20,393 nt of DNA, from positions 1 to 20,393 of the IMG/VR virus record IMGVR_UViG_3300045825_000053. One strand, 5' to 3'. Source of the stretch: a virus. The notes under the pieces were generated by a model. The model saw only the letters and a list, made by a program, of their open reading frames with translations. It did no database searches and was not told the DNA's origin. The position numbers and the translations under genes are program-made. Shown one piece after another: positions 6,549 through 15,417 of this stretch (positions within the stretch are counted from its first letter, which is position 1; every line of letters starts with the position of its first letter).

Positions 6549-7919
6549 TTAGCAAGCTACGCGGCAGGACAACTCTCCGTATAAAGGTGCCCATCCAAAC
6601 AGCGTATCAAAGCGAGTAGGCATCTGGTCGTTGTTGATCGTGTATTGAGTTACTACACGAATCGACATGCCACCCTCTTTACTAGAGGCTCTACCAGCAT
6701 ACTCAACACCACGCGGCAGAGGCAGGTCAGCCATTGCCAACGTAAACGCATTCTTGTGGTGCAAGATGTTTTGCGGAGAGCTAACACCAACCGAACTAAA
6801 GCCAATTGCGTAAGGCGTGCAAGTAGCCGTAGTAGAAGCAGTCACGATAGAGCAGTTCTGGAATTGACCAGCAGTGATGATAGCCGGAGAAACAGTCGCG
6901 GAGAAGGTAGTGGAACCAGTACCTCCGCAATCAGCCTTAACCACGAAGGTACGCGGTTTAGAACCGTACACTTGGCGATTCTGAGGATTGACCGGATACA
7001 GACCAGCGATGGAGATTACATCGCCTTTCTTCAGGGCGATGGTTGCGCTGTTGGTCAAAGTGATTGTCGAAGTGGAAGCCCAGCCGGAAGTAAGGATGCC
7101 AGTGTCAGCAGTCGAAGCAGTCAAAGTACCGGCAGTTGCAGCAGCCCAATAACCGGAAGTCTGGGTAGATACGTTTTGGTCAGTTACCCAATCCATACCA
7201 GCGGAATCACGACCCATCAAACCAGTGCGGAACTGTTTGTCAATTGCTTGACCTGGAGTAAACAGACCTTTCAGCGAGTCAACAATCACAGCGCCGGAGA
7301 ACTGCTCCAGAACCATCGTACGATCACCACGCAGCGGAGTACCTTCGGCGGTCAGATAAGCACCACCAAGTAAGTAAGTAGACAGAGCGGATGCCGGAGT
7401 ACCGTAAGTACCGACAATGTTTGCTGTCTCGTTCTTAGCCATTTGCAGGCCTATGTAGTCGATCTTGTTCGCAATTGCTGCAACAGCGGGCTTGATGACG
7501 TTATCAGAGAATGCACCCAGAGAAAGTTTCAGGTCTTTGGTAGTGAAAGCAACATCAACGTGGAACTGATCGCCGTATGGGTTGTTAGTACCACCGGACA
7601 AGCCAGGATTACCAACAATAACCGGAATCGAAGTCTGATTGTAGTCTTCAACATTCAGATTCGAGCCAGATGTACCGATGAAGCGCGGAGGTTTGCGAAC
7701 GTTCAGAGTATCGCCAATCTTCGCACCATCTACTCCGAACGAGTCGTCATATTTACGGGTTACGCCTTCAGCGAATACGATTTCATTTTCAAGAACCATC
7801 AAACTCTCGTTTGTGATCTTGGACATTGTCAGGATGGTGTCTGTTGCGCCAAACATCATGCCCATGCGGGTCATGTAATTGGTGAACAGTACATAAAAGA
7901 AACTAGAGATGAATTTCAT
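6549..7919 (-). CDS. Major capsid protein, P22 gp5-like coat
   Basis: The 456-residue protein shows the pattern of P22-type coat proteins: MSKITNESLMVLENEIVF and GAKIGDTLNVRKPPRF near the N-terminus, FSDNVIKPAVAAIANKIDY in the backbone, IALKKGDVISIAGLYPVN in the middle, and MADLPLPRGVEYAG with SIRVVTQYTINND and DTLFGWAPLYGELSCRVAC at the end. P22 gp5 is 430 residues. The start at 7919 has GGAGCC 8 bases upstream; about 24 residues (MKFISSFFYVLFTNYM onward) precede the region where family members normally begin. In P22 this HK97-fold protein forms the icosahedral shell on the scaffold. Preceded by scaffold, followed by a terminator. Confidence 0.9.
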   Translation of the reverse strand: MKFISSFFYVLFTNYMTRMGMMFGATDTILTMSKITNESLMVLENEIVFAEGVTRKYDDSFGVDGAKIGDTLNVRKPPRFIGTSGSNLNVEDYNQTSIPVIVGNPGLSGGTNNPYGDQFHVDVAFTTKDLKLSLGAFSDNVIKPAVAAIANKIDYIGLQMAKNETANIVGTYGTPASALSTYLLGGAYLTAEGTPLRGDRTMVLEQFSGAVIVDSLKGLFTPGQAIDKQFRTGLMGRDSAGMDWVTDQNVSTQTSGYWAAATAGTLTASTADTGILTSGWASTSTITLTNSATIALKKGDVISIAGLYPVNPQNRQVYGSKPRTFVVKADCGGTGSTTFSATVSPAIITAGQFQNCSIVTASTTATCTPYAIGFSSVGVSSPQNILHHKNAFTLAMADLPLPRGVEYAGRASSKEGGMSIRVVTQYTINNDQMPTRFDTLFGWAPLYGELSCRVAC

Positions 7920-7923
7920 GATA

Positions 7924-7982
7924 AAGGCTCCAAAAGAGTTAAGAAAGTGGGTTTAGCACGCTCAAAAACTCAAAGGAGCCTT
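7924..7982 (-). promoter_or_regulatory. Coat leader hairpin that covers the Shine-Dalgarno site
   Basis: In the minus-strand transcript AAGGCTCC (7982-7975) pairs with GGAGCCTT (7931-7924), and GAGTT (7971-7967) pairs with AACTC (7940-7936), separated by a U-rich internal loop and closed by a 26-base loop. The 3' arm contains the GGAG that serves coat ATG 7919. Free folding would hide the site, so the hairpin may control coat translation or be an RNase III target. Pairing is seen directly; the role is inferred. Confidence 0.6.
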
Positions 7983-8078
7983 CTTTGGATATTCCCCCGT
8001 ATGACGAGGTAGCAGGCTAATTACGCTAGCCAAGCAGTTGTTCTGTCGAACAGGTACGACACAAAACCCCTGTTATAT

Positions 8079-8094
8079 GTTGCAAGAATACAAC
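8079..8094 (-). promoter_or_regulatory. Operator-like palindrome, upstream of coat
   Basis: Minus-strand GTTGTATTCTTGCAAC, followed at once by ATATAAC, which could be a -10 element pointing toward coat. It is one of five copies of the same near-palindrome in the window and lies in the 195-base scaffold-coat gap. A coat-specific promoter with an overlapping operator is possible, but no good -35 is visible. Confidence 0.5.
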
Positions 8095-8114
8095 AGTATT
8101 TCAAAAAGTGCAAA

Positions 8115-9074
8115 TTAAGTTATTTTGCCTGATCTGCGCAAAGCCTTCCACTCGTCAGCGGTTCCAAAAAATTCGCCTTTGTCGTCTATCTTGTTGCTAG
8201 ATAATGCTGAACCTGACTTAATTGGAGAGATTACGGCAGCAGGAGTAGCAAGCGGCTTAATAGCAGGAGTTTTCTTAGTTTCCTTTGTTTCTACCTTATC
8301 CTCCAGCTTGCCGATAAACTTGTACATCTTGTCCAATGTCATGCCATTCATCTTCTCGACTTCAGTAGGATTCTTAGCCAGGAAGTAACAGATTTCTGGG
8401 CCTACATCCGAATCCCTCAGGGCTTCCCTAGCCTCATTGGATACCATTAGCCCGCCTGCGTTATCCATAGTCTCTTTGAAGTCAGGAATGGAGGTTTTAG
8501 CCAATTCCCAACGAGAATCCCAGTTAGTATTCTTCTCTTGTTGTTTTTTTGCAACAGTTTCATTCTGGAGTCTGGTTGACTCTTCGCGCTTGGTATTGTC
8601 GGAAGTCCACTCTTTGAGTGCTTTGGTGAATTCCTTAATATCTGTGAACTGTTCCGGCTGTGGCTCTGGGTCTTGCTCAGTCTTTACAGGCTCGTACTTG
8701 TCTTTGAGTGCCTGAATCTCTGCTGCAATCTTAGCGCGTTCTTCCTTGAGGGTTTTTGCCTCTTCTTGAGCCTTGGTTGCCTTCTCTTCAGCTTCACGCT
8801 TTGCAGCAGTCAGCTTGGTAAAACGCTCGTTGATGCCGTGTTTCTTCTTCTCATCCAACTCTGGAGCATCATGGGTTGGGTCTTCTTTTGACTTTGCTTC
8901 TTCTTCTTCCGCTGCCTTAGTCTCGGCTTGCTTTGTCTCGATTTCCTTTAGTTCCTTTGCTGCAATCACTTCTGGGTCGGTTTCGTTTGGTATTCCAAGC
9001 TCACGGTTCAGATGTTCGTTGTAGTTATCTTGCGTGATGGTAATAATATCGGGTCGATTTTCTACTTCTGACAT
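8115..9074 (-). CDS. Scaffolding protein, P22 gp8-like
   Basis: The 319-residue protein is very charged and predicted helical. Long Lys/Glu/Ala coiled-coil stretches cover residues about 35-75 and 85-135, with a second helical region around 150-260 and a Pro/Ala linker near 270-285. The C-terminus (FGTADEWKALRRSGKIT) is compact and basic, comparable to the coat-binding end of P22 gp8, which is 303 residues. It lies between portal and coat, where scaffold is found in P22-like phages. Scaffold guides coat assembly into a procapsid and leaves before or during DNA packaging. GGAGAG precedes ATG 9074. The call rests on composition and gene order. Confidence 0.8.
   Translation of the reverse strand: MSEVENRPDIITITQDNYNEHLNRELGIPNETDPEVIAAKELKEIETKQAETKAAEEEEAKSKEDPTHDAPELDEKKKHGINERFTKLTAAKREAEEKATKAQEEAKTLKEERAKIAAEIQALKDKYEPVKTEQDPEPQPEQFTDIKEFTKALKEWTSDNTKREESTRLQNETVAKKQQEKNTNWDSRWELAKTSIPDFKETMDNAGGLMVSNEAREALRDSDVGPEICYFLAKNPTEVEKMNGMTLDKMYKFIGKLEDKVETKETKKTPAIKPLATPAAVISPIKSGSALSSNKIDDKGEFFGTADEWKALRRSGKIT
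8540..8555 (+). promoter_or_regulatory. Operator-like palindrome inside scaffold
   Basis: GTTGTTTTTTTGCAAC, one of five copies. It encodes part of VAKKQQ in the scaffold on the other strand, so it may be chance from Lys/Gln codons; it nevertheless keeps the outer arms. Confidence 0.35.
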
Positions 9075-9106
9075 GGTTTACTCTCCATAGAGGATTATTC
9101 CCTGAA

Positions 9107-9337
9107 TCAGTCAGGTTCCGTTTGCTTTTGCTTCCAATGAATACCAATAGGATTGCATTCTAGATATCCTATTCCTTCTATCGTTTTTGATTTAATACTG
9201 TCAGAAACGATGCCCATTCCGTCAAATCTGGCTTTCTCACACTCCATTAGCTTGCCATGTATTAAATCACGCACTAACTCGCACCTTAAAGTTGCACTAT
9301 CATTAACACAAGAAACGCAATCTGCGCATATTCTCAT
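9107..9337 (-). CDS. Small Cys-rich, probably zinc-binding phage protein
   Basis: The 76-residue protein opens with MRICADCVSC and has further cysteines at 19 (LRCEL), 33 (MECEKAR) and in a late ECNPIGIHW element. This pattern (C-x2-C, a later C, ECEKAR, then C-x-P-x-G) matches a family of small phage proteins whose members are probably zinc-binding and of unknown role. ATG 9337 lies one base after the portal stop, and GGAG lies 8 bases upstream inside the portal end, so translation is probably coupled to portal. I excluded a longer in-frame extension because it overlaps portal. Confidence 0.7.
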   Translation of the reverse strand: MRICADCVSCVNDSATLRCELVRDLIHGKLMECEKARFDGMGIVSDSIKSKTIEGIGYLECNPIGIHWKQKQTEPD

Positions 9338-9338
9338 A

Positions 9339-11396
9339 TTAATGCTCCGCTCTTTCCTTTGCTGCGCCTTCCATATTTCCATGCTCTTTGCGCTCATCAA
9401 TCCTAGCCAGTAATAAAGCCACATGAGCCTGAATCTCTGCAATCTGAAGTCTAGTATCATTATCCACCGCGGTATCGTTTCTCTCTTCATTCGCCCACAT
9501 TTGAGAGTCATGAGCCTTATTAGACTCAACCATCAGCGTGCGCTTAGTCTGACCTTCCTGCTTCATCTGCTCCAGACCTGTCTTGTATTTAAGCTCAGTC
9601 TGTAGTTGTTGGATAGCGTCTTGCATTTGCTTGATGGTAGCGTCAGCCTGTTTCAGCTTCATCTGTACTTGAGGCGGAATGTCACTCTTCTCGTCAATCT
9701 GTGATAGAGGATTAGCAGCAGCTAGACGATCTGCCAGCACATCAGAGCCAGGGAAGTCCATTTGCCTTACAATAAGGTCATCACCAACAGCGCCTACCTT
9801 CTCACCCATCGGAGTGCCAAGCAGCTGCATCATCGAATCTACACCTTGCAGGCGTTTAGAGTCGTATCCTGGGCCGGTATCCATCACAACATCGTAAGTA
9901 CCTACACGTACATCATTCAGGACTGTGGCGATAGCTTGCGAAGTTTCGTCTTGTTGCGGGTCTTGATTGATCTTCACCATGCTTGGCGTGCCATCTTCCC
10001 CAATAATACGGCGAGTGGTCGATTCGTTCAGCACTTTAGGAATGCCAGACAGAATGATACGGGCTGTATGCTTAATGGAACGTGTTAGGTTGTCGTATCC
10101 GTGATAGTTGGAGTTCTCTGACTGGCTACGCTCGGCATTAACAGCCTTACCGGACTTGGCTTTACCTTCTTGCATGTTAGGGTCGAATATACCCATAACC
10201 CTTTGCAGATTCTGGTTTGACAAGAATGCAGCCTCAATACTGCCAGACGGAGGCGGTTCAGGTTGCATACGTTGCGGAGGAGGCGCAGGTTGTCCATCTA
10301 CGTCTGTTGGTTTGTACCGTAGTACAGCGGTAGAGCTTAGATTGGCATTCTTGAATTCTTGCTCATGGCCTTCGTCCTGACCTTCGGCAATCAGCCATTT
10401 TGCCTTTGGAGCAAGGGCGATAGACTCAGTGATTGAGGTATGCCAGAAATTAACCATTCTCTGACTGTCCATTCCTGGACGAACCATGCCTTGACGGAGA
10501 ATCTTGTTATCAATCTTGGTGTTTGTCCAGTAAACAGGCACTACAGGTATCCATCTCCAAGGCAGTACTTTCTCTTCGAGTACATCAAGGGAAGTCTGTT
10601 TGCGCCATTTCACTATGCGCTTTTGGCTATCACGATCACCAATGATCTGTACTCCGTGCATATCAAGCAGCCTTTGTGGGGGCATTTCATCTTCAAACAC
10701 TGAATTTCCATCCGATAGCTTGACTAGCTTCATCGGCTTTCGGTCTACGTAGAAATACTCAGCTATGCGAATCTCATACTTATTCACCCACTCAGGGTTA
10801 TTGTCGCCTGTGTTGTCCTCACTGAAACTAATAGCGTCTGCGCCAGGGTAGAGCTTCTTAAATTCCGTCTTTTTCATCAAGTCTGTAATCAAACACTTTT
10901 CCTGATCTGAGCCATCTGGAAGGCGGGATGCGGGGTCGAAATAGACCGAGAATGGGTTGTCTACCGAGTCAATGAATATATCCTGATCGAAGCTATCTTC
11001 CCGTACATAGTCATTACGGATGCGCCAATATCCCCAGCCCATAGTAGCAGCGAAGTCGAACGCTATGTCATAGGCGTTGTCTGCATCAGAATTAACTTCG
11101 AAGTGACGCATTAGGCCGGTAATTACCTTGGCTGTCTTTGGGTCTGCGAAGTCGTCGACAGGGTGAACTTTGATGCGAGGGCGTTGCTGGCGTTGTCCGT
11201 TTGTTACTTGGCGGATATATGAATCCATCTCGTTGATGGTAAGCTGTGGTCGGTCTAATCCTCGGCTGGCGATTGCGTATTGAGGCCATTGCTCACCGTA
11301 TCGGAACTTAAGGTCTGTTAGAGCAAGGGCGCGTTGATTCTCGTCAGCCTCATTGCTCATTCTCATGAATTCGATTGCGTCATCTACATCAGCCAT
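9339..11396 (-). CDS. Portal protein, P22 gp1-like
   Basis: The 685-residue protein has the P22-type portal pattern: an N-terminal helix (AIEFMRMSNEADENQRALAL), the FRYGEQWP element, LTINEMDSYIRQVTNGQRQ, a WGYWRI strand and FDPASRLPDGSD, WRWIPVVPVYW in the middle, and a long C-terminal helical part with IKQMQDAIQQLQTELKYKTG. P22 gp1 is 725 residues and forms a dodecamer at one capsid vertex through which DNA enters and leaves. TerL lies upstream, scaffold downstream, as expected. AGGGAATAATC precedes the ATG. The C-terminal helix probably corresponds to the barrel of P22-type portals (inference). Confidence 0.9.
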   Translation of the reverse strand: MADVDDAIEFMRMSNEADENQRALALTDLKFRYGEQWPQYAIASRGLDRPQLTINEMDSYIRQVTNGQRQQRPRIKVHPVDDFADPKTAKVITGLMRHFEVNSDADNAYDIAFDFAATMGWGYWRIRNDYVREDSFDQDIFIDSVDNPFSVYFDPASRLPDGSDQEKCLITDLMKKTEFKKLYPGADAISFSEDNTGDNNPEWVNKYEIRIAEYFYVDRKPMKLVKLSDGNSVFEDEMPPQRLLDMHGVQIIGDRDSQKRIVKWRKQTSLDVLEEKVLPWRWIPVVPVYWTNTKIDNKILRQGMVRPGMDSQRMVNFWHTSITESIALAPKAKWLIAEGQDEGHEQEFKNANLSSTAVLRYKPTDVDGQPAPPPQRMQPEPPPSGSIEAAFLSNQNLQRVMGIFDPNMQEGKAKSGKAVNAERSQSENSNYHGYDNLTRSIKHTARIILSGIPKVLNESTTRRIIGEDGTPSMVKINQDPQQDETSQAIATVLNDVRVGTYDVVMDTGPGYDSKRLQGVDSMMQLLGTPMGEKVGAVGDDLIVRQMDFPGSDVLADRLAAANPLSQIDEKSDIPPQVQMKLKQADATIKQMQDAIQQLQTELKYKTGLEQMKQEGQTKRTLMVESNKAHDSQMWANEERNDTAVDNDTRLQIAEIQAHVALLLARIDERKEHGNMEGAAKERAEH

Positions 11397-11398
11397 GA

Positions 11399-11575
11399 TT
11401 ATTCCCTATCCTTAAATGGTCGTCCCAGCTTCTTCTTAATGCGTATTATCTCCCTTTTTTCTTGTTTTTGTTGTATTTTTACAACATTAACACCACGTAC
11501 CTCGTCTATCTCTTCTTGGGAAAACTTTGATTCTTTGTAGAGGGCTTTTATTGCCCATTTAGGTATGAAGGTCAT
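11399..11575 (-). CDS. Small basic protein, unknown
   Basis: The 58-residue product (MTFIPKWAIKALYKESKF start) is rich in Lys/Arg at its C-terminus (REIIRIKKKLGRPFK, with a GRP core that recalls AT-hook-like sequences, though only weakly). ATG 11575 forms an ATGA overlap with the gene upstream; a longer frame to 11614 would overlap that gene by 43 bases. Its end lies 3 bases before portal. A DNA-binding role is possible, but no family is recognised. One copy of the palindromic motif lies inside it (11470-11485). Confidence 0.55.
   Translation of the reverse strand: MTFIPKWAIKALYKESKFSQEEIDEVRGVNVVKIQQKQEKREIIRIKKKLGRPFKDRE
11470..11485 (+). promoter_or_regulatory. Operator-like palindrome, perfect arms
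   Basis: GTTGTATTTTTACAAC has two fully complementary 6-base arms around TTTT and is the most symmetric of the five copies. It lies inside the small gene before portal, about 75 bases upstream of portal ATG. Confidence 0.5.
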
Positions 11576-11775
11576 TTCACGTTTAAAGCAATAATTGGGG
11601 GCGTAGTTGCCCACTCCATAAACTCTTTTGGTGGAACTTCAGTCCATCCGGCAGCATGAAACATCTCACAGTAAACATGATACGCATGGGCTATTTCATC
11701 ATCCAAATGAGAACTGAACTCTGAAGGATAAGCATGGCGCAGCTTCTTTATGGTCTTAGACTCGTAATCTCTCAT
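11572..11775 (-). CDS. Small protein, unknown
   Basis: The 67-residue product (MRDYESKTIKKLRH start) has a helical middle (DDEIAHAYHVYCEMFHAAGW) and ends in PPIIALNVK. I chose ATG 11775 over a GTG at 11784 because AAGGG lies 8 bases upstream and the ATG overlaps the preceding stop as ATGA. It ends by ATGA into the 58-residue gene. It lies between TerL and portal, where phages often hold small accessory genes; no function is recognised. Confidence 0.6.
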   Translation of the reverse strand: MRDYESKTIKKLRHAYPSEFSSHLDDEIAHAYHVYCEMFHAAGWTEVPPKEFMEWATTPPIIALNVK

Positions 11776-11786
11776 CCCATCCACCC
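11772..11786 (-). repeat. 15-bp direct repeat, copy 2
   Basis: GGGTGGATGGGATGA on the minus strand, identical to 11951-11965. It contains the Shine-Dalgarno GGG, the TGG-ATG-GGA-TGA end of one gene (Trp-Met-Gly-stop) and the ATG of the next. Confidence 0.8.
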
Positions 11787-11954
11787 TTGCTTACGTGAGA
11801 AGTCATCCAGACTAAGCCTTAAATCCTCTATCGTGAAGTTTTCTTCTTTTAGTTCTGGGTGCTCGACTGTGCTGATATTTTCAATATTATGAGTTGACGC
11901 ATATTCACGCTTAATAATATAAGTAGTCAGTAATGCTCTGAGGTTGTCAGTCAT
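11772..11954 (-). CDS. Small acidic protein between two direct repeats, unknown
   Basis: The 60-residue product (MTDNLRALLTTYIIKREYAS start, ending in RKQGWMG) has helical segments and a hydrophilic middle (EHPELKEENFTIEDLRLSL). Its last four residues GWMG equal the last four of TerL because both ends are coded by the same 15-bp repeat. ATG 11954 overlaps the TerL stop (ATGA) and has GGGGGG 8 bases upstream. Exact loss of one repeat plus this gene would leave the following gene fused to the TerL end in the same ATGA arrangement, so it looks like an inserted or duplicated cassette. Family not recognised. Confidence 0.6.
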   Translation of the reverse strand: MTDNLRALLTTYIIKREYASTHNIENISTVEHPELKEENFTIEDLRLSLDDFSRKQGWMG

Positions 11955-11965
11955 CCCATCCACCC
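11951..11965 (-). repeat. 15-bp direct repeat, copy 1
   Basis: GGGTGGATGGGATGA at the TerL stop, identical to 11772-11786. The copies lie 179 bp apart, start to start, and bracket one small gene. Confidence 0.8.
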
Positions 11966-13282
11966 CCCAACGTAGTCTTGCTCTGATTGCACTTTGGCTT
12001 TCCTTGGTTTAACTATTCCAGGGAATATCTCAGTAAGCGCCCAAACTAGCGCATCTGCCCTATTTGGGGACCCTGCGCCGATATATCCCATAGTTGAAAA
12101 TGATGTTAACTCATCCTCTAAATCTCTAAAATACCCGACATGCCTGATCTTGCCTTGCTCATACAGTGACGAGAATGGCTCTGCTCGTACTACCTTACCT
12201 CGGCTTGCAGTAACAGACTTGTACGGGGTTCTAGGTCTTGCGGTCTTTATGGTCATTTCAACCATCGCCCCCCCATAATTCTGCTCACCCACAATAATAT
12301 CCGCTTCATGGCGTTCGTAGGCTGTTGTAGCTATATTTCCCCATGTTGATGGACCAGCTTTAACCGTGCAGTCTTCCAGTACATAAGCGTTACCATCTGT
12401 ACCTAATCCAGCCACTATGATACCGATTGCGTCATTGTCAGCGTTGTCAACATCACCACTACCAGATGGGTCAACAGCTACCACTATCCTCTGCATATCA
12501 GGCAGCACGCCATCCATGTGCCGCCATTTGTCGATAGTTTCATCAGTGAATAGCCCATTTGGATTTTCGTCTGTAAATTCCCCAAGCAAGAACCGTTTTT
12601 GCAACCTAGCCGATAACCCCTTCAATGTATCAATGTAGCTCTTTGGAAGGTTATCTTCATTATCTTGCGGGTTCATCTGCAAGTAACCAAATATCTCTTT
12701 GTGATTCGGTATCGGCATCTTGGTATCTGGGTCTATCCCCTGTACGAATACCTTATATGTCCAATGCCCCTTTCCTGGGGGGTTGCAGTCGTAGAACATC
12801 TTCAATGGTAATGGAAACGGTTCTTTACCCTCGATCTCACACAAACAGACTTGGGCAAGGCGAGTAACAGCCAAGTCCCTTGAAGCCTTTGGTATCTGTG
12901 AACACTCGTTAAGGTAGATGGTGGCGAACTCTTGCCCTAATATCTTTTCTGTGCGCTCTTTGTCATCTAGTCCGCCTATCCATATCTCAGATTGATTAGG
13001 GAAGTAAACAATACCCTTTTGTTTATCTATACTAACCACTACATCAGGAAAGCACAGCTTCATCACTTTAGGTAGGGTATCCATCAGGATTGAGGCTACC
13101 GCAGCGTTATACCTAAACCTGAGAATTGCGTGTCTACTTCCCGGTGCCTTAATCGCCCTTACGCATATCCGGCGAACAATAACAAACGTCTTGCCGCTTC
13201 TTGACCCGCCAAACAACATAACATGCTGAAGTATGCCATTTAGAAGCTCATTAGCCTTTAGCTGACGATCTGTTAGCTTCAT
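11951..13282 (-). CDS. Terminase large subunit
   Basis: The 443-residue protein is the ATPase/nuclease motor of head packaging. Walker A is GGSRSGKT (residues 25-32), Walker B TIYLNE (121-126, catalytic Glu126), and a coupling-type motif is YDCNPPG (164-170). The RNase H-fold nuclease begins with VAVDPSGSGD (Asp271), continues with IIVGEQN (Glu333) and closes with NRADALVWAL (Asp410). The three acidic residues fit the expected metal site. P22 gp2 is 499 residues, so this is somewhat short but complete. It overlaps TerS by ATGA. The last residues GGWMG are encoded by the 15-bp repeat. Confidence 0.95.
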   Translation of the reverse strand: MKLTDRQLKANELLNGILQHVMLFGGSRSGKTFVIVRRICVRAIKAPGSRHAILRFRYNAAVASILMDTLPKVMKLCFPDVVVSIDKQKGIVYFPNQSEIWIGGLDDKERTEKILGQEFATIYLNECSQIPKASRDLAVTRLAQVCLCEIEGKEPFPLPLKMFYDCNPPGKGHWTYKVFVQGIDPDTKMPIPNHKEIFGYLQMNPQDNEDNLPKSYIDTLKGLSARLQKRFLLGEFTDENPNGLFTDETIDKWRHMDGVLPDMQRIVVAVDPSGSGDVDNADNDAIGIIVAGLGTDGNAYVLEDCTVKAGPSTWGNIATTAYERHEADIIVGEQNYGGAMVEMTIKTARPRTPYKSVTASRGKVVRAEPFSSLYEQGKIRHVGYFRDLEDELTSFSTMGYIGAGSPNRADALVWALTEIFPGIVKPRKAKVQSEQDYVGGWMG

Positions 13283-13530
13283 CCGTCAATGTCTGATTCC
13301 AGAAGTCCAACCAGGAAAGGTTTATTGTTTAGGTTTCCGTGCTCGATGTTGGCTAGCTTGGGATGTACATAAGGAGCCGCGCCCTTTGCTGCATCCATGC
13401 GGGCAGAAGTCTCTAAAGACTCGTCCCGCATTACCTTAAGCATAAATTGAAGCGGAGTTTCGCCAGACTGCTCAACCTGTAGTTGGAGTTTTCTGGTTAC
13501 TTTATTTCTTGATCCTGCTGGTCTAGCCAT
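13279..13530 (-). CDS. Terminase small subunit-like protein
   Basis: The 83-residue protein has MARPAGSRNKVTRK followed by TPLQFMLKVMRDESL and ARMDAAKGAAPYVHPKLANIEHG. This pattern is common in small phage proteins just upstream of TerL that are annotated as small terminase or terminase-associated. Small terminase recognises the packaging site and regulates TerL. P22 gp3 is 162 residues, so this is about half length; it may be only the DNA-binding part. No Shine-Dalgarno site precedes ATG 13530; instead the upstream 50 bases hold two palindromes. The end overlaps TerL by ATGA, which supports the pairing. Confidence 0.7.
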   Translation of the reverse strand: MARPAGSRNKVTRKLQLQVEQSGETPLQFMLKVMRDESLETSARMDAAKGAAPYVHPKLANIEHGNLNNKPFLVGLLESDIDG

Positions 13531-13537
13531 GATATTT

Positions 13538-13553
13538 GTTGTTTATTTGCAAC
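13538..13553 (+). promoter_or_regulatory. Operator-like palindrome A before terS
   Basis: GTTGTTTATTTGCAAC, ending 8 bases from terS ATG, in the position where a ribosome site would be expected. Paired with the copy at 13565, 27 bases away start to start. This could be an operator, a TerS-binding pac-like site, or both. Confidence 0.55.
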
Positions 13554-13564
13554 TTTTTGAGTTT

Positions 13565-13580
13565 GTTGTATTTTTGCAAC
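13565..13580 (+). promoter_or_regulatory. Operator-like palindrome B before terS
   Basis: GTTGTATTTTTGCAAC, 35 bases upstream of terS and 4 bases before the groES stop. On the plus strand it is followed by TATAAT, but no minus-strand-specific promoter is obvious. Confidence 0.55.
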
Positions 13581-13583
13581 AAG

Positions 13584-13901
13584 TTATAATGAGCGTTCAT
13601 CAATGAAACAAACGTCAGATTCCTGAAGAATTAGATATTCTTGCCCGTCTTCTATCACTTTGGGGAATTTAATGCAACCTAATCCCTTGCCGCCGTATAG
13701 GACATTATCCCCAACCTTTGATACTAATGGAATGAGCTTGCCTTTCTTGGAGAGCTTACCTGGTCCTACTGCCATAACCTCACCAAATGCCCCCCAACTG
13801 TTCTGATCTGAGTCACTGATAATTACGGTTAATACTTTGGAGTGTTTCCTTGCTTGTGGCTTTACCAATACATAGTCTTGTAGGGGGCGGAATTTAGGCA
13901 T
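13584..13901 (-). CDS. groES: GroES-like co-chaperonin (Cpn10)
   Basis: The 105-residue protein starts with KFRPLQDYVLVKPQAR, the GroES entry strand, and continues with FGEVMAVGPGKL, VGDNVLYGG and GQEYLILQESDV, the other core elements. GroES is the lid of the GroEL folding chamber; phage versions such as T4 gp31 replace it for capsid folding. The mobile loop (about residues 17-35) reads KVLTVIISDSDQ: the contact residues are hydrophobic but do not match the cellular pattern. Length is close to the usual 95-100. ATG 13901 overlaps the preceding stop (TAATG). It lies directly before terminase, consistent with support of late-protein folding (inference). Confidence 0.85.
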   Translation of the reverse strand: MPKFRPLQDYVLVKPQARKHSKVLTVIISDSDQNSWGAFGEVMAVGPGKLSKKGKLIPLVSKVGDNVLYGGKGLGCIKFPKVIEDGQEYLILQESDVCFIDERSL

Positions 13902-15066: not shown

Positions 15067-15279
15067 CCTAGAATCCCTTATGGTGGACAGACCTAGACTT
15101 ATCCCTAGGCCTTCACAGTTAATCCCTCACGGAGCCACTGACCCGACAGCCTTACGTAGTGAACCTGCTATCTTCGACGGGTTCATGCGCTATTGCATCT
15201 ACTTATCCCCACAGTGCGCTTTCAGTATTAACCGCTGCCGTTTACCCTGACCAGTTAATCCGACTAGCCACCAAAGCAA
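15067..15279 (-). other. Non-coding gap
   Basis: About 210 bases between the coiled-coil gene and the large stem-loop. No supported gene; the best minus frame is 19 codons. Plus-strand ACTTATCCC occurs twice (15097-15105 and 15201-15209), a motif that also turns up as ACTTACCC in other gaps of this region. Confidence 0.35.
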
Positions 15280-15353
15280 AAGGCCTTATCTGCTCATGCT
15301 TTCGGTGCGCACACACCGCCCTTTCGGGGAAAAGCATGATGAGATAAGGCCTT
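15280..15353 (-). ncRNA. Large stem-loop with two inner hairpins
   Basis: A 23-bp stem with a single 2x2 mismatch pairs 15280-15302 with 15331-15353 (outer part AAGGCCTTATCT). Its loop holds CGGTG-CGCACA-CACCG and CCC-TTTC-GGG, giving a three-way junction. On the minus strand it is followed by TTTTGC, so it may terminate the ninG-side transcript; it may also be a structured RNA or DNA cruciform. Structure is seen directly; function is unknown. Confidence 0.55.
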
Positions 15354-15417
15354 CATCGTACAGAGTGTGCGCTCTAGTAACGTCATTATTAAACAATTTC
15401 ATAATTAGCGCAACCAT
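15286..15417 (-). CDS. Possible 43-residue ORF through the stem-loop
   Basis: ATG 15417 follows the NinG stop by 2 bases with GGAAA upstream. The 43-residue product (MVALIMKLFNNDVTRAHTLY start, ending TESMSR) runs through the large hairpin and stops inside its left arm. It could be a real small gene or chance; the hairpin sequence would constrain its residues. Low confidence. Confidence 0.3.
   Translation of the reverse strand: MVALIMKLFNNDVTRAHTLYDEGLISSCFSPKGRCVRTESMSR

Follow-up and report, generated by a model that had tools for sequence, protein, structure and literature searches.

A two-fold symmetric DNA site of 16–18 bp was found to be repeated within one P22-like phage genome fragment beyond chance expectation, as judged from its 5-base arms, and the same word recurs beside promoters in many unrelated viruses, so that it is probably a docking site of a gene-control protein. 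We tentatively propose, with confidence a little short of even, that this undescribed box, TGTTGYAnAAAWACAACA, is a promoter-associated element of many unrelated phages, preferentially placed in half-turn steps upstream of the –35 hexamer and read by a conserved regulator, probably of the hosts, and that in P22-like phages it lies additionally at the transcription starts of terS and scaffold/coat. For the fragment itself, we give about even chances to the reading that the boxes are binding sites of a dimeric transcription regulator and serve as operators at putative terS and coat promoters.

The fragment comprises 20.4 kb (the window, meaning the whole stretch analysed) and is incomplete; the virus record contains no genome sequence beyond it. 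It belongs to a P22-like podovirus whose identified genes, NinB and NinG among them, all lie on the minus strand. The boxes are framed by the following genes:

13279–13530, minus: terS (83 aa; phrog_641/phrog_15261)
11951–13282, minus: terL (Terminase_6C/6N, phrog_979)
9339–11396, minus: portal, P22 type (PF16510)
8115–9074, minus: scaffold (phrog_8865)
6549–7919, minus: coat protein, P22 type (PF11651)
13584–13901, minus: groES-like gene upstream of terS (PF00166)

The last of these, a phage-encoded GroES-like co-chaperonin gene, adjoins terS; GroES-like genes upstream of portal were also present in most of the loci L291–L299 and in a second P22-like lineage, the L363 clade.

The initial annotation had listed five GTTG-N8-CAAC cores, and all of them were recovered at the positions and in the gene contexts it had given: two before terS, one in the scaffold–coat gap, one in a gene preceding portal and one within scaffold. 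Their assignment to a GTTGYA-N4-TRCAAC class held exactly for three (8079, 11470 and 13565), whereas the other two (8540 and 13538) deviate by one mismatch. The statement that most copies extend to 18 bases was borne out as well, TGTTG-N8-CAACA being present in four of the five, with 13538 as the exception. The boxes are:

13565–13580, minus: box 1 before terS, GTTGCAAAAATACAAC; 2 bp after a TATAAC hexamer; tandem layout common to L363 and relatives
13538–13553, minus: box 2 before terS, GTTGCAAATAAACAAC; non-coding; 27 bp from box 1 and 7 bp before the terS ATG
8079–8094, plus: box in the scaffold–coat gap; over the –10 of the putative coat promoter; partly conserved in L150
8540–8555, minus: box within the scaffold gene; encodes VAKKQQ
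11470–11485, minus: box within a 71-aa ORF before portal; encodes VVKIQQ; perfect-arm palindrome TGTTGTATTTTTACAACA

Both terS-proximal boxes fall inside the 53-bp groES–terS gap. Single-base differences aside, the minus (coding) strand carries GTTGYAAAWAWACAACAA at four of the five boxes and the plus strand carries it at box 8079, which has the opposite orientation. No further clean-match copies were found elsewhere in the 20-kb fragment.

The comparison with shuffled sequence that had been called for came out in favour of the set: dinucleotide shuffles held a mean of 0.43 GTTG-N8-CAAC words (maximum 4 in 500), compared to five in the window. Since the word had been picked by eye after seeing the data, the test was redone over all palindromic words and spacers. 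After this correction the 4-base arms were not significant, with an equally extreme word in 30 of 120 shuffles. With 5-base arms, TGTTG-N8-CAACA (four copies) was the top word and was matched in none of 200 shuffles. The box set is real, but the 4-base arms by themselves would not have been enough to establish it.

Promoter-like hexamers accompany the boxes at two gene starts:

13583–13611, minus: putative terS promoter TTGTTT-N17-TATAAC of weak consensus; ends 2 bp before box 1
8085–8113, minus: putative coat promoter TTGCAC-N17-TATTCT of weak consensus, just after the scaffold stop

TTGCAC follows the scaffold stop in the window, L150 and L155, and TTGACA occupies the same place in L151; 17 bp further on, TATTCT is found in the window and TATTTT in L150. 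Box 8079 is centred on the putative coat –10, and between the window and L150 the 18-bp box is identical at 15 of 18 positions, the immediate flanks less so. A consensus promoter scan of the window returned fewer promoter-like sites than shuffled sequence, and neither the putative terS nor the putative coat promoter was on its list. Two leader elements were noted in the same region. The coat 5′ leader (7920–8060, minus) is conserved over about 140 nt; its GGCTCC...GAGC blocks recur in L150, L149 and L155 and, with less similarity, in L151 and L153. No Rfam family matched this leader at gathering score. The scaffold leader (9101–9115, minus), which precedes the ATG at 9074, carries a conserved hairpin of the form UACC-stem-loop-stem-GG-GnAAAuCC. 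In an alignment of 12 rows (window, L291, L149, L153, L148, L156, L158, L174, L293, L363, L374 and L391), both sides of a pair changed in 12 cells (shuffles: 4.6), and the cells were paired in 92% of cases. This hairpin is a possible translational operator; the scaffold protein of P22 is said to autoregulate.

The box is widespread beyond this fragment. An exact search of IMG/VR with the 17-mer GTTGYAAAAATACAACA from the window retrieved at least 120 viral contigs, compared to 21 for the reversed control, and the fetched loci (1.02 Mb) held 192 relaxed sites versus 10 reversed ones; these site counts include related phages, and many of the matched contigs are partial and without host data. The sites were mostly intergenic, with 29% within ORFs as opposed to 77% of random positions in the same loci. 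Sigma-70 promoters, called purely by TTGACA/TATAAT consensus with at most two mismatches, followed 101 of 372 site contexts (27%), but only 28 of 1536 random positions (1.8%) and 63 of 1528 random intergenic ones (4.1%). Loci selected by tandem pattern gave a promoter after 11.1% of sites (0.9% random, 3.1% random intergenic); the numbers from that initial scan were, by estimate, largely at chance level, and motif-dense loci alone were taken as leads. The commonest layout was site, 10 bp, TTGACA, 17 bp, TATAAT. Distances from the site peaked at 33–34 and 43–44 bp for TATAAT and at 10–11, 16, 20–21 and 26–27 bp for the –35 element, the latter peaks stepping by roughly half a helical turn (resultant 0.30 at period 5.25, n = 137). 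The sites in the window are without this usual layout. The motif contigs differ in the phage genes that they carry, so descent from a single phage family does not account for the spread, although some of the matches are related to one another. Two motif-rich contigs compared with named phages by megablast gave no match, and literature searches with the word strings returned no published description of the box and nothing else relevant. Close TerL, portal and coat relatives were without the box except for a one-mismatch copy in L150. In L418, L428 and L439, three to four direct copies of GTTGCAAAAATACAACA are arrayed upstream of a TTGACA element, and their copy number differs among contigs with the same flanks.

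A second P22-like lineage (L363, L374, L377, L378, L380, L381, L391 and L392) was gathered by GroES homology rather than by the motif; L140 also belongs to it, as does L293, which comes from a MAG with a Methylococcales label. The GroES alignment already included both of these contigs, and it was the tandem pattern that had originally led to L140, so the route was not wholly motif-blind. In eight of the 80 GroES-found loci, terS is immediately preceded by two to three boxes spaced 24–54 bp from each other, an arrangement that the reversed control did not give in any locus; the TerS and TerL proteins of this lineage are unrelated to those of the window. In the L363 clade another box comes after the stop codon of portal and lies over a promoter-like TTGTAW-N17-TAAGAT sequence before scaffold; here the word is GTTGTA-N4-[A/T]ACAAC, with the arms kept and the centre varying. 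Two more boxes fall within portal. The second of these varies at a single base of its 16 among six phages of about 82% identity; 50 of 2039 windows are conserved to the same degree, which makes the result no more than suggestive. The 35-kb contig L363 has six Y/R-type sites, of which five are located between terS and scaffold, as in the window. One L363 box, with one mismatch, stands in the common layout (site, 10 bp, TTGCGT, 17 bp, TATACT), and another is located 2 bp downstream of TATACT, resembling the TATAAC-TT-GTTGCAAAAATACAAC arrangement of the window. A different tandem word, ATGATACA, was seen between groES and terL, before the presumed terS, in L291 (899–975) and L294 (2332–2350); tandem words before terS may be common in this phage group. 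Both lineages also share an RNA element. Rfam RF02932, 'Betaproteobacteria-1 RNA', matched the window at 15141–15261 (minus) and was likewise found between early and late genes at L374:2213–2331 and L414:15148–15264; because of its presence in both P22-like lineages it may be a phage leader RNA and not a bacterial sRNA. Directly upstream of it, the window (15270–15395, minus) contains a long terminator-like inverted repeat, AAGGCCTTATCT...AGATAAGGCCTTTTGC.

The terS-proximal copies also indicate what is being conserved. In L140 and L363 the pair is coding and supplies the VAEIQQ...VAEKQQ residues with which a small protein ends. L419 and L423 have GTTGCATAAATACAAC as their second box, which spans a TAA stop and still keeps its right arm beyond it. 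In the window both boxes are non-coding. It is thus the DNA that is conserved and not a peptide.

These data bear on several alternatives. That A/T-rich palindromes simply arose from Lys/Gln/Val codons and simple sequence appears distinctly unlikely. Codon usage could account for the coding copies at 8540 (VAKKQQ) and 11470 (VVKIQQ): AKK and QQEK residues are partly retained in scaffold relatives, and no close relative covers either position. The 4-base-arm count, not significant after correction, also speaks for chance. However, three of the five copies are non-coding, the 5-base-arm test stands at 0 of 200, and the box recurs, with its promoter association, in independent contigs. An element acting at the mRNA level, as small hairpins or as translation control near start codons, could be imagined since the 7 nt that separate box 2 from the terS ATG contain no clear Shine–Dalgarno sequence. 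Such a role is nevertheless quite improbable: four of the five window sites place C opposite A at the fifth pair (T opposite G on the other strand), these combinations are common outside the bait too, and the arms fail base-pair covariation. Moreover, one of the five window copies is inverted relative to the rest, and other phages have the box ahead of the promoter and hence outside the transcript.

The smallest chance is left to TerS recognition (pac/cos) sites, the second option of the initial annotation. Lambda cosB has repeated elements, which the tandem copies resemble, and tandem copies do occur at the terS boundary in both the window and the second lineage. That lineage has an unrelated TerS and TerL, though; the TerS of the window and that of L140 share no significant similarity, and within the L363 clade the TerS versions differ while the box is constant. 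Copies away from the terminase genes, in portal, in the scaffold and coat gaps and near promoters of unrelated phages, also disfavour this option. P22 itself has a single pac site of 22 bp, which is asymmetric and lies within terS (PMC9611059). Recognition by TerS is thus unlikely because the same box occurs with dissimilar TerS proteins and P22 pac is single and asymmetric; the likeness to pac and cosB is one of location at the terS boundary, whereas the box stays the same where the terminases are unrelated and also occurs in other genes. An activator site, from which a regulator upstream of –35 would help RNA polymerase as at class I/II promoters, is possible but on balance unlikely. Many phages have the box 10–11, 16, 20–21 or 26–27 bp upstream of TTGACA in half-turn steps, and one L363 box shares such a layout; the spacing peaks may, however, partly reflect shared ancestry, and the boxes in the window and at the L363-clade scaffold promoter overlap or follow the putative core promoter, where activators seldom act.

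A position over or just after the core promoter is the usual site of repression, and one upstream of –35 is more natural for activation. The box takes the former position in the window and at the L363-clade scaffold promoter, and the latter in most other phages; one regulator could both repress and activate. In the operator reading, the consensus (T)GTTGYAnAAAWACAAC(A) would be bound by a dimeric regulator that is absent from the fragment and may belong to the host. The terS pair would lie just downstream of the putative TATAAC element and box 8079 over the putative coat –10, and given these positions a bound regulator would most likely repress the local transcription of the packaging and head genes or set its timing. 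We infer the promoters, their repression, the regulator protein and any role of the two coding copies. The suggestion of an operator for a late regulator gained ground in its operator part, from promoter-side recurrence, the layout in the second lineage and conservation at the DNA level. 'Late' proved not to be specific, the same box being found elsewhere upstream of TTGACA/TATAAT promoters, one of which, in a P22-like relative, lies beyond the head module. Among the window proteins scanned, in this incomplete fragment, no HTH family match was obtained, and no protein family was common to most motif contigs, the largest cluster covering 14 of about 134 loci. Its representative looked exonuclease-like by eye and was rejected as a single phage-encoded regulator shared by the motif contigs. 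A P22 Cro/YdaS-like protein of L363 is a candidate, but upstream of its own gene there is no more than a half-like GTTGTAAAATAAACAA. A search for a host regulon found the box in only 11 of 398 sampled Pseudomonadota genomes and, with Methylococcales also searched, no regulon; the contexts of the few bacterial genomic matches varied, and no neighbour was seen to be shared among them.

The box shares features with several known systems. Operators of lambda CI/Cro, 434 and P22 c2 are short and symmetric with an A/T-rich centre and are paired at or over core promoters. Like these sites of dimeric phage repressors, the box has two-fold symmetry over 16–18 bp, an A/T-rich centre and site pairs; unlike them, it is common to phages without common genes and has copies in the head module. 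With the operator/stoperators of L5 and cluster A it shares the repetition of one regulator word at promoters and between genes. Sites of that kind are asymmetric, span 13 bp, bind a monomer and point in the direction of transcription (PMC9283540), in contrast to the 16–18 bp near-palindrome in mixed orientation described here. Dispersed repeats near gene starts are also known from cluster K mycobacteriophages, where the SAS are 13-bp asymmetric, start-codon-linked elements and the ESAS 17-bp imperfect inverted repeats (PMC3203893). The SAS consensus GGGATAGGAGCCC next to start codons differs in sequence from the box, which in other phages is linked to promoters.

If the proposal is correct, a common regulator reads the box in phages that share few genes, and the phages of a host group tap the same switch. 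The box would then provide a sequence handle to predict promoters and the host range of uncultured viruses. It also raises the question of how head genes are timed in P22-like phages without recognisable late regulators.
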